DNA of 64,000 nucleotides from Flavobacteriaceae bacterium (GTDB lineage: Bacteria; Bacteroidota; Bacteroidia; Flavobacteriales; Weeksellaceae): assembly GCA_030538275.1 (NCBI GenBank), contig JAUNUH010000003.1:62001-126000 (forward strand), given 5' to 3'. A model generated the notes under the pieces. It did not search any database, was not told the DNA's origin, and saw only the letters and a list, made by a program, of their open reading frames with translations. The position numbers were made by a program, and so were the translations under genes. This document shows, one piece after another, positions 27,186-30,543 of this stretch (its first letter is position 1; each line of letters opens with the position of its first letter).

Positions 27186-27202
27186 ATGATATTATTAATT
27201 AT

Positions 27203-27346
27203 TTAGCAATATTGACTTGAAATTCGATGTGTAATTTCAATTTTTTCTGAATTTGCTTCAACTGCAAATAGCATCACTATCGGTTTAACATAGGTTTTAT
27301 GACCTTCAATTTCAACGTCATATTCTTTTAAATGTAAATCATTTTT
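27203..27346 (-). pseudogene. Possible 3' remnant of an unidentified gene
   Basis: Translation gives a 47-residue coding-like segment containing KEYDVEIEGHKTYVKPIV and EKIEITHRISSQYC before TAA (27205-27203). A stop codon closes the frame upstream at 27347-27349, and no start codon precedes a useful length. The composition looks protein-like, but I do not recognise the family. Confidence 0.3.
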
Positions 27347-27380: not shown

Positions 27381-27415
27381 TTTGCGAATTTTAGCAAGTT
27401 TAGTTATTACATTTG
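27381..27415 (+). promoter_or_regulatory. Promoter of candidate short transcript 1
   Basis: -33 TTTG (27381-27384), 23-base spacer, -7 TACATTTG (27408-27415). This fits the Bacteroidota consensus. No dyad like those of the next two units lies upstream. Confidence 0.5.
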
Positions 27416-27420
27416 TATCT

Positions 27421-27498
27421 GAATTTTAAAAATTCGATTCTAAATATCCCTCTCTCAAAACTCAAATGAACCGTTTCAATTTTATTGGGACGGTTTTT
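27421..27498 (+). ncRNA. Candidate short transcript 1 (about 78 nt)
   Basis: Predicted from the promoter at 27381-27415 to an intrinsic terminator: ACCGTTTC (27470-27477) pairs with GGGACGGT (27487-27494) through three G-T or G-C positions and is followed by TTTT. No reading frame of note. The terminator could instead serve the LOG gene that ends 285 bases upstream. Confidence 0.35.
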
Positions 27499-27525
27499 AT
27501 TATTTATAAATGCAAAAAATCAAAA

Positions 27526-27574
27526 AATACGTATTTCTACGTATTGACTCATCATGTTTTCAATAGTAATTTTG
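27526..27574 (+). promoter_or_regulatory. Unit A: dyad operator plus promoter
   Basis: Dyad AATACGTATTTCTACGTATT (27526-27545; perfect 8-base arms, 4-base centre). Its last bases overlap the -33 TTG (27544-27546), then 20 bases, then -7 TAATTTTG (27567-27574). The position of the dyad on the -33 box is that expected for an activator or competitive repressor. Unit B repeats the same geometry exactly. Confidence 0.7.
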
Positions 27575-27579
27575 TCCTA

Positions 27580-27671
27580 TCAAAGTAAGCTTATTCATAT
27601 TTCATAAAAAATTATTAGCCTACCATGAAAGCTCTACTCAGAAAACGTAAACTTCGGTTTGCGTTTTTTTT
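27580..27671 (+). ncRNA. Unit A: candidate small RNA (about 90 nt)
   Basis: Runs from the unit A promoter to a textbook terminator: AAACGTAAAC (27643-27652), TTCG tetraloop, GTTTGCGTTT (27657-27666, one G-T pair), T-tract to 27671. An ATG at 27625 could start a tiny peptide (MKALLRKRKLRFAF...) whose codons lie inside the hairpin. The peptide reading cannot be excluded, but the frame ignores the terminator. Transcript ends are predicted, not known. Confidence 0.55.
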
Positions 27672-27680
27672 ATTTATAAA

Positions 27681-27729
27681 AATACGAAATTCATCGTATT
27701 GTATAGTTGAAGTTCCAGCCTTAATTTTG
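27681..27729 (+). promoter_or_regulatory. Unit B: dyad operator plus promoter
   Basis: Dyad AATACGAAATTCATCGTATT (27681-27700; 7-base arms, 6-base centre), -33 TTG (27699-27701), 20 bases, -7 TAATTTTG (27722-27729). Arms AATACG/CGTATT, dyad length, overlap with TTG and spacer are identical to unit A, while the dyad centre differs. Confidence 0.7.
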
Positions 27730-27734
27730 ACAAA

Positions 27735-27846
27735 TAAACCTGCAGAAGTTCTCATAAAAAATAAAATTTTTCATAGTTTAGGTAATGTAATAGTTAATAA
27801 TACGACAATCAATAGGTGCCTACAGGTTGGCGCTTATTTTTATTTT
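27735..27846 (+). ncRNA. Unit B: candidate small RNA (about 110 nt)
   Basis: Ends at a hairpin AATAGGTGCC (27811-27820), loop TACAGGTT, GGCGCTTATT (27829-27838), followed by TTTATTTT. The stem pairs all ten positions with two G-T. Its body shares TCATAAAAAAT with unit A but otherwise differs. No credible reading frame. Confidence 0.5.
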
Positions 27847-27948
27847 CTCCTATTGATTTATCTTAATTCATAAAATTTATTTACTTTCTAACTCAAATTA
27901 CTTAATGAAATCCACCGAAAAATCCTAAATTCACAAAAATATATTGTA

Positions 27949-29865
27949 ATGTCTCGCTGTTGTTATTTTACTTTAATTTTTTTTCTAATTGGAAGTTTGC
28001 TGTTTGCGCAAGGACTCCAGGAAAATAATGAGTCGGGAATACAACAAAAAAACGAAAATGCTGTCACCCTAATTCAATTGGCAAAGGAATATGCGTCTAA
28101 TCAAAAATATAATGAAGCACTAGAGGTGATAGAAAAAGGATTGTCTTTGTATAATAATGAAGACATCAAGGCGGAGTTTTTTTTTCAAAAAGCATTGATA
28201 TACAGTGCAAAAGATGACATTGCCCTACAAATAAAATATTTGAAAGAAGCCGGGAATTTGTATAATAATTTTAATGATTCTATGGCTGCCGAGTCCAAAT
28301 ATTTATTGCAAAGAGTGTATCAAAAAGCAGGATTTTATGCAGAAGCCTTATCCACGGGTTTTGACGAGCTCAAATTCAGAAAAGATTTTTTGGGTGAGGA
28401 CGCATTGTATGTGAGAGCCCTGCAAGAGATTGGCTACACCTATGATCGTATGAGCGAATATGAAAAATCAATTGAATGGAATCGAAAATCCATTCCATTT
28501 GCCAAAAAAATAAACCATTCTAGCTTTATAGGTCGAGGATACGGACTCATTGGAATTGCCTATGACGAAAGGGCGCAATATGACAGTGCCTTGTTTTATA
28601 ATCAAAAAGCCATTGAATATTTTAAAGAAGCGAATAACAAGCAATTTTTAGAAATTTGGTATTCCAATATTGGAAATACCTATACGAAAATGAATCGGCT
28701 GGATGAGGCTGAAAAATATACAAGAATGTCATTGGATTTGACAGATCCAGATCGTCCTAGCCCTGTAACTATCACAAATTTAGGCAAAATTTTTCTCGAA
28801 AAAGGTGATTTTTTACAAGCAGAAAAAGTCCTTGATAGCGCTTTGAATCTCTCTTTGATTAGAGGAGATAAAAGATTTTTATCCGAAGCATACCTTCGAT
28901 TTTACGAATTAAGACTCAAGCAAAATAGATATAAAGAAGCTCTGGAATTCTATGTGAAATTTAAAGAAAATGAAGATGAATTATTTTCTCAATCCAAAGC
29001 ACAGCACACCAACCAGATGTCGATTCAATTTGAAACAGAAGAAAAAGAAAAAGAAATCTTGAAGCAACGTGCCGAAATTGCTGAAAACGAACTTCAACTG
29101 CAACGTCGCGGACTCACTGTTTTGGCTCTTTTGGCACTTATTTTTACAAGTTTAATTTTGGGTTATTTCTTCTGGAAACAACAAAAAGTAAAAAATCTTC
29201 AACTTTTGAAAGAAAATGAACTCAAAAATGCACTTTCATTAATAGAAACGCAAAACAAACTTTATCTACAACGCCAACGAATTTCTAGAGATTTACACGA
29301 TAATATAGGCGCACAACTCACATTTATTATATCATCTATTGATAATCTAAAGTATATCTTTATGCTTGATAATCAATTATATAAAAAATTAAATCAAATT
29401 TCAGAGTTCACCTCAGAAACTATTTCTGAACTAAGGGATACCATTTGGGCTATGAACAGTCCTAAAATCACTTTTGAAGACTTGAAGTTGAGAATTACCA
29501 ACTTTATAGATAAAGCTAATCTTGCCGCCACTGGCACATCATTTAATTTTGAAGTAAATGAAACCATTAATATCCAAAGAGAATTCGACGCAATTCAAGG
29601 AATTAATGTGTACAGAATTATTCAAGAAGCGGTGAATAATGCCATTAAACATGCACAATCAACCGCAATAAAAGTGAACTTTAAAGTATATAATGATAAA
29701 ATCCAAATTGTAATTACCGATAATGGAAAAGGATTTAATCCCAATAATGAAATCGAAGGAAATGGTATTTTAAGCATGAAAAAACGTGCAGCAGAACTTC
29801 AAACCGAACTTTTTATCGAATCTTTTCCAGAAAAAGGAACGCGTATTTATTTTGACCTTCAATAA
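27949..29865 (+). CDS. TPR-containing sensor histidine kinase (HisKA_3/HATPase_c)
   Basis: The 638-residue protein has a signal peptide (residues 1-20) and a periplasmic region of tetratricopeptide repeats (about residues 35-340; for example YNEALEVIEKGLSLY, KFLEIWYSNIGNTYTKMNRLDEAEKY). One membrane helix follows (about 389-409), then a coiled linker. The HisKA_3 dimerisation helix has the phospho-acceptor His near residue 450 in SRDLHDNIGAQ, and the ATPase domain has EAVNNAIKHA, DNGKGF and GNGILSMKKRA. It is a NarX-like kinase with the TPR input common in Bacteroidota; the signal is unknown. It is 24 bases from its response regulator and 100 bases after the unit B terminator. Confidence 0.93.
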   Translation: MSRCCYFTLIFFLIGSLLFAQGLQENNESGIQQKNENAVTLIQLAKEYASNQKYNEALEVIEKGLSLYNNEDIKAEFFFQKALIYSAKDDIALQIKYLKEAGNLYNNFNDSMAAESKYLLQRVYQKAGFYAEALSTGFDELKFRKDFLGEDALYVRALQEIGYTYDRMSEYEKSIEWNRKSIPFAKKINHSSFIGRGYGLIGIAYDERAQYDSALFYNQKAIEYFKEANNKQFLEIWYSNIGNTYTKMNRLDEAEKYTRMSLDLTDPDRPSPVTITNLGKIFLEKGDFLQAEKVLDSALNLSLIRGDKRFLSEAYLRFYELRLKQNRYKEALEFYVKFKENEDELFSQSKAQHTNQMSIQFETEEKEKEILKQRAEIAENELQLQRRGLTVLALLALIFTSLILGYFFWKQQKVKNLQLLKENELKNALSLIETQNKLYLQRQRISRDLHDNIGAQLTFIISSIDNLKYIFMLDNQLYKKLNQISEFTSETISELRDTIWAMNSPKITFEDLKLRITNFIDKANLAATGTSFNFEVNETINIQREFDAIQGINVYRIIQEAVNNAIKHAQSTAIKVNFKVYNDKIQIVITDNGKGFNPNNEIEGNGILSMKKRAAELQTELFIESFPEKGTRIYFDLQ

Positions 29866-29889: not shown

Positions 29890-30543
29890 ATGAAAATTAA
29901 AATTGCAATCACCGATGACAACCCTTTGCTTATCTCTGCCGTAAAAGCAAAATTGTCTTTTTTTGACGAATTAGATGTCAAATTTATCGCCTACAATGGT
30001 AGAGATCTTCTCGATAAATTAGTAGAAGATTCTTCTATCGACTTGATTTTGATGGATCTAGAAATGCCAATTATGGACGGCGTAGAAGCTACAAGATCGG
30101 TAAAACAGCTCTATCCAGATATGAAAATTGTAATTCTTACAGTTTTTGATAATGATGAAAATATTTTTAATGCCATCAAAGCAGGTGCAGATGGATATTT
30201 GTTAAAAGAAATTAATGCAAATGATTTATTTAATGGGATTAAAGAAACATTGAGTGGTGGTGCCGCTATGAATCCTTCTATCGCCATGAAAACGCTTAAA
30301 CTTCTTCGGAATCCACAAGGTTTGGAAAACAAAAAAGATGTTGAAGAAATTCAACTTTCAATCCGGGAAACAGATGTGCTCGAACAATTGTCCAAAGGAA
30401 TTAAATATAATCAAATTGCAGATAATCTATTTATTTCGCCAGGAACAGTGAGAAAGCATATAGAAAATATTTATAAAAAATTACAAGTTCATAATAAATT
30501 AGAAGCCGTAACCAAGGCAAGAAGAAATAAGTTGATTAATTAG
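29890..30543 (+). CDS. LuxR/NarL-family response regulator
   Basis: The 217-residue regulator has a receiver domain with phospho-acceptor Asp56 in LILMDLEMPIMDG, Lys in YLLKEI, and a C-terminal GerE helix-turn-helix (LSIRETDVLEQLSKGIKYNQIADNLF then ISPGTVRKHIENIYKKL). NarL-type regulators bind as dimers to short inverted repeats. The dyads at 27526 and 27681, just upstream of this operon, are the obvious candidate sites (inference). Confidence 0.95.
   Translation: MKIKIAITDDNPLLISAVKAKLSFFDELDVKFIAYNGRDLLDKLVEDSSIDLILMDLEMPIMDGVEATRSVKQLYPDMKIVILTVFDNDENIFNAIKAGADGYLLKEINANDLFNGIKETLSGGAAMNPSIAMKTLKLLRNPQGLENKKDVEEIQLSIRETDVLEQLSKGIKYNQIADNLFISPGTVRKHIENIYKKLQVHNKLEAVTKARRNKLIN

Follow-up and report, generated by a model that had tools for sequence, protein, structure and literature searches.

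A dyad promoter of fixed geometry at two putative short transcription units beside a two-component system of a Flavobacteriaceae bacterium

The window, that is, the whole 64,000-nucleotide stretch of Flavobacteriaceae DNA analyzed here, encodes on its plus strand a 638-residue sensor kinase with TPR, HisKA_3 and HATPase_c domains (27949–29865) and a 217-residue response regulator of the LuxR/NarL type with Response_reg and GerE domains (29890–30543), both identified by Pfam matches. Upstream of this operon and on the same strand are two short units, A and B, each composed of an inverted repeat AATACG-N8-CGTATT, a TTG at the dyad end, exactly 20 bases, the sequence TAATTTTG, a short body, and a hairpin followed by a T-tract. 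In unit A, the dyad AATACG-TATTTCTA-CGTATT occupies 27526–27545, the overlapping −33 element TTG 27544–27546, the −7 element TAATTTTG (Bacteroidota sigma-A type) 27567–27574, and the intrinsic terminator (13-bp stem, UUCG loop, T8) 27640–27671; in unit B, the dyad AATACG-AAATTCAT-CGTATT is located at 27681–27700, the overlapping TTG at 27699–27701, the −7 element TAATTTTG at 27722–27729, and the intrinsic terminator (10-bp stem) at 27811–27842. The outer six bases of both dyads match perfectly. With starts placed from the −7 positions, unit A would specify an RNA of about 93 nt (27579–27671) and unit B one of about 108 nt (27734–27842), and both dyads would be centered at about −43.5. The geometry described in a first-pass annotation of this DNA (dyads, TTG, 20 bases, TAATTTTG, terminators) is therefore present, as are its non-coding bodies, here of about 95–110 nt, which contain no credible gene.

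A perfect 6-8-6 dyad overlapping TTG-N20-TAnnTTTG occurs only at units A and B in the 64-kb window; the count expected by chance for the full sequence, from base composition, is about 1.7e-6 to 2e-6. The sigma-A −7 box of flavobacteria has the sequence TAnnTTTG (PMC9723704), which both promoters combine with a TTG within the spacing of 19–21 bases of Bacteroidota sigma-A promoters; a sigma-70 promoter scan (8 found, 8.9 expected) is uninformative here. The terminator hairpins fold with −13.1 kcal/mol (A, z −3.9) and −13.3 kcal/mol (B, z −5.3), and no shuffled sequence folded equally well. The region contains five terminator-like sites (1.5 expected), three of them at the units: those of A and B and an upstream hairpin at 27468–27496 (27468–27500 with its T-rich tail, plus strand) that would end any transcription arriving before unit A. 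Folding of unit B beyond its terminator gave no strong structure (z −0.4), and an Rfam search with the window and related units returned nothing relevant, with no match above the gathering score. The only listed open reading frame, 27625–27873, crosses the terminator of A and the whole of unit B. Its passage through that terminator led us to reject the idea that unit A encodes a small peptide. Farther upstream, a perfect TACATTTG is located at 27408–27415, before the terminator at 27468–27500 and without a dyad or a correctly spaced TTG; the two could form an unregulated short unit. A reading by eye of the minus strand at 27190–27345 suggests a short coding remnant (EYDVEIEGHKTYVKPIVMLFAVEANSEKIEITHRIS).

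The genome contains six clean dyad promoters, including those of A and B, with exact or near-exact dyads, all with N20 and TAnnTT and on the correct strand; the remaining near matches either fall inside long open reading frames or have no promoter that matches cleanly. Behind the six are three short units, a LuxR-type regulator gene, and the genes for a GEVED/Por_Secre_tail protein and a DUF11 protein. Three of the dyads surround a second kinase–regulator pair on another contig, C1, that has the same Pfam domains as the pair in the window (Response_reg and GerE in the regulator, HisKA_3 and HATPase_c in the kinase). One precedes the second LuxR-type regulator gene, another a short, separately terminated unit (C) of about 67 nt, and the third the gene for a 1040-residue protein that combines GEVED repeats with a type IX sorting tail; the sixth dyad of the genome, on contig C16, is in the promoter of the gene for the 852-residue DUF11 protein. 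Both are putative large surface or secreted proteins.

A scan of public genomes, with the dyad-to-box spacing left open from 17 to 23 bases, returned at least 119 stretches with dyad promoters that, among the matches listed, are nearly all from Bacteroidota. In the 121 matches listed, the spacing is N20 in 91, N21 in 18, N19 in 8, and some other value in 4; at the level of sequence this ties the dyad firmly to the promoter, although the count also partly reflects normal promoter spacing. The first-pass annotation had suggested a search of other genomes for the pattern beside HisKA_3/LuxR pairs, and the pattern does recur beside regulator genes: those for LuxR-type regulators of two classes, window-type and C1-type, are close to many of the sites among the matches listed. 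The dyad is directly upstream of the regulator gene in L137, L084, and L031 as well as on C1; window-type regulator genes are among those that have it directly 5'. No description of the motif or the locus, and no binding motif for a TPR/HisKA_3 kinase with a LuxR-type regulator, was found in the literature searched. Several Flavobacterium genomes carry many copies of near-identical dyad promoters, with TATAAATA or TATTTATA as the center, upstream of unrelated genes (L037, L050, L053, L064, L067, L085, L088, L112–L115, L132, L144, and others). In Algoriphagus (L038, L040, L069, L083, L093, L101, L106, L111), the dyad comes after a C1-type regulator gene and, in the majority of records, ahead of a small ORF of about 91 residues with a conserved MKISS...IQTIKNRDELLVL.

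Orthologues of the window kinase are present in 15 of 120 genomes of the family. In five genomes of one related genus, the orthologous kinase–regulator operon has the dyad, at N20, as its promoter, and a second dyad after the operon drives an outer-membrane-type gene; in seven genomes of that genus, the true pattern occurs 3–6 times per genome and a reversed control pattern not at all. In another genus (L158, L159, L161), a different dyad, AATAGGGCA-N2-TGCCTTATT, is located at N20 near an orthologue of the window-type kinase, an apparent drift of the site with its regulator, as would be expected if both evolve together. Separately, L180, L184, and L188 (from about 1540) share a syntenic dyad-driven unit with ACACAAATGATG, a tiny ORF, and a strong terminator; ACACAAATGATG is also the start-codon context of regulon mRNAs in that genus.

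Because the same switch recurs at such regulator genes across the Bacteroidota, the dyads are very probably binding sites for LuxR-type response regulators; an inverted repeat is present at the promoters of the putative regulon, including that of a regulator gene itself. Because the dyad is the kinase operon's own promoter in the five relatives, a link to the two-component system is supported as well. The first-pass annotation, which had proposed a regulator of the LuxR/NarL type at the dyads, was very probably right in this; its assignment of both units to one regulator is not supported in that form, given that the centers of the dyads covary with regulator class. Among the matches listed, a T[AG]N4[TC]A center accompanies C1-type regulators in 11 of 11 cases and window-type regulators in 1 of 10, although the 11 are not independent because many of the linked C1-type records are from Algoriphagus (about five genera stand behind them); the one-sided Fisher p, calculated by hand, is about 3e-5, or about 7e-4 when the records are collapsed to genera. 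A tree separates the two classes with support of 100 and 97, and the covariation of site with class speaks indirectly for binding by these regulators. Because unit A has a C1-type center and unit B does not (its center is of the window type), the two units probably answer to different paralogues of the regulator family, and the same-genus genome that has a single unit and no C1 kinase points the same way. Even so, the two dyads are much alike, and a single regulator might bind both, with overlapping specificities.

On the whole, we lean toward a model in which dimeric LuxR/NarL-type response regulators bind both dyads and activate the sigma-A promoters from about −43.5, where class-II activators usually sit (e.g., at the lux box). 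The geometry, the terminators, the genes that bear the dyad, its conservation, and the match between center and regulator class can be read from the sequences; binding, activation rather than repression, transcription, and base-pairing function are steps that we infer. Each promoter would direct a short RNA of about 95–110 nt that ends at the intrinsic terminator and is probably regulatory. Unit B would answer to the adjacent two-component system, with the protein encoded at 29890–30543 as its proposed regulator, and part of the transcription of unit B probably reads through into the kinase operon; unit A would most likely answer to the second, paralogous system on C1, the regulon of which would also include its own regulator gene, the two large surface-type protein genes, and short unit C.

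Because no separate consensus promoter is seen for the kinase gene, a serious alternative for unit B is that the units are tandem, attenuated, autoregulated promoters of the kinase–regulator operon, with leader terminators that limit read-through and RNAs that are by-products without targets; we regard this as possible rather than probable. In the window, no TTG-spaced promoter, even with one mismatch in the −7 element, is present between terminator B and the kinase gene; a dyad promoter drives the kinase gene directly in the five relatives; and in one genome of the same genus, in which a single unit rather than two has its dyad about 330 nt before the kinase orthologue, a strong hairpin is located about 33 nt before the kinase start. 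The same relative, however, has a possible separate kinase promoter, TTG-N19-TAAATTTA; similar short terminated units occur elsewhere with no regulator operon behind them; and two terminators stand between the promoter of unit A and the kinase gene, which makes the short RNA the likelier product of that unit. We consider it probable that the units are small RNAs or attenuated leaders; both could hold for B, whose transcript may double as the 5' leader of the kinase operon.

Unit A might instead derive from a C1-regulon promoter, as a stray copy that recently came to rest before the kinase operon and specifies a functionless RNA. Its dyad region is 89% identical over 38 nt to the promoter of the C1 adhesin gene (the 1040-residue protein) and resembles the C16 promoter, with which it shares an identical center, TATTTCTA; a search of the other 119 family genomes did not find the C1 kinase; and the same-genus relative, which has no C1 kinase, also has no second unit. 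When 40 relatives were searched at the DNA level for the twin region, the only matches were this genome's C1 copy of the promoter and short ones attributable to chance. The terminator of unit A is nevertheless complete and well formed and its promoter intact, and we consider a stray copy unlikely. Also unlikely is a role of the dyads as operators, with the regulators repressing these promoters by occlusion of the −33 element: the overlap with TTG would allow it, but the predicted center at about −43.5 is that of a class-II activator, and the element has the same geometry at regulator and surface-protein promoters.

In favor of short RNAs as the product, stand-alone units of dyad, short RNA, and terminator recur: unit C, L108 (next to a C1-type regulator), L044, L066, and L082, in several Bacteroidota including Psychroserpens, where the unit comes directly after a C1-type regulator. 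An RNA of roughly 115 nt is conserved in dyad, body, and terminator, with a variable spacer, in five Aequorivita records and Pukyongia; this recurrence of short terminated units behind the same dyad supports the view that such promoters repeatedly have small RNAs as their output. The Aequorivita/Pukyongia records (L046, L099, L129, L135, L136, L118) share the invariant stretches TATTTTTTGTGGGGATAGAAAATA and ACTAAGTTAGGTTTGTTA; the two submitted to Rfam (L046, L118) had no match, and a search with its exact pattern did not find the Aequorivita RNA in 296 genomes of the order.

For units A and B, small RNA output is plausible, but comparison of their bodies and target prediction make the case weaker than for the recurrent units elsewhere. 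The bodies of A and B have no detectable homology (p = 0.34), so the old duplication posited in the first-pass annotation is supported for the promoters only; the shared sequence and common seed of a twin small RNA pair of the OmrA/B type were not found, and by this comparison the units are identical in geometry, not sequence twins. Between bodies B and C a short stretch does match (p = 0.002 to 0.007, with many pairs compared), and A, B, C, and L108 all contain TYTCATA (p = 0.011, for a set picked after looking); a common seed among A, B, and C alone is not significant. When duplexes were predicted with 51 start regions, the regulon mRNAs were absent from the best partners, and no target emerged. 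That the two paralogous systems are cross-wired through adjacent small RNAs, with the C1 system making A, the window system making B, and the RNAs letting one system adjust the output of the other, is a doubtful further reading.

OmrA/OmrB and GlmY/GlmZ are paired, adjacent or related small RNAs under two-component control. Their members share sequence, whereas the bodies of A and B do not, which makes the comparison that had been drawn with them a weak one. In Pseudomonas, GacS/GacA includes a regulator of the LuxR/NarL type, a palindromic upstream site, and several short non-coding RNAs, RsmX/Y/Z (PMC2375449). The system described here is similar in its type of regulator and in its palindromic site before several short non-coding RNAs; it differs in that predicted RNAs A, B, and C contain no GGA motifs by eye, where Rsm RNAs have repeated ones, and that a CsrA-type partner is not evident. 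The GacA site also differs from the dyad in sequence and position. FimS/FimR of Porphyromonas gingivalis, a TPR-bearing sensor kinase and response regulator that control surface fimbriae (PMC11053733, PMC1974823), resembles the window pair in its description as a Bacteroidota system of this design; the portions of these sources consulted describe no small RNA for it, unlike the units here. Rfp small RNAs of Flavobacterium psychrophilum (e.g., Rfp18) are short independent transcripts, one of which affects protease mRNAs (PMC9723704); by description they are like units A and B in being short independent units in a flavobacterium whose main promoters have TAnnTTTG, and unlike them in that the portions of that source consulted report no LuxR-type dyad.

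Units A and B are real, well-supported regulatory elements, and the assignment of their regulator is refined from one system to two. TPR/HisKA_3 kinases with LuxR-type regulators recur in the Bacteroidota genomes examined, and a dyad that has fixed geometry, is tied to the promoters of these regulators, and covaries with their class provides a directly testable motif and regulon. The interest of the finding thus lies in a phylum-wide motif and its regulon, not in a new principle; the dyad would also offer a way to find small RNAs controlled by two-component systems in the Bacteroidota, a phylum in which few small RNAs have an identified regulator.
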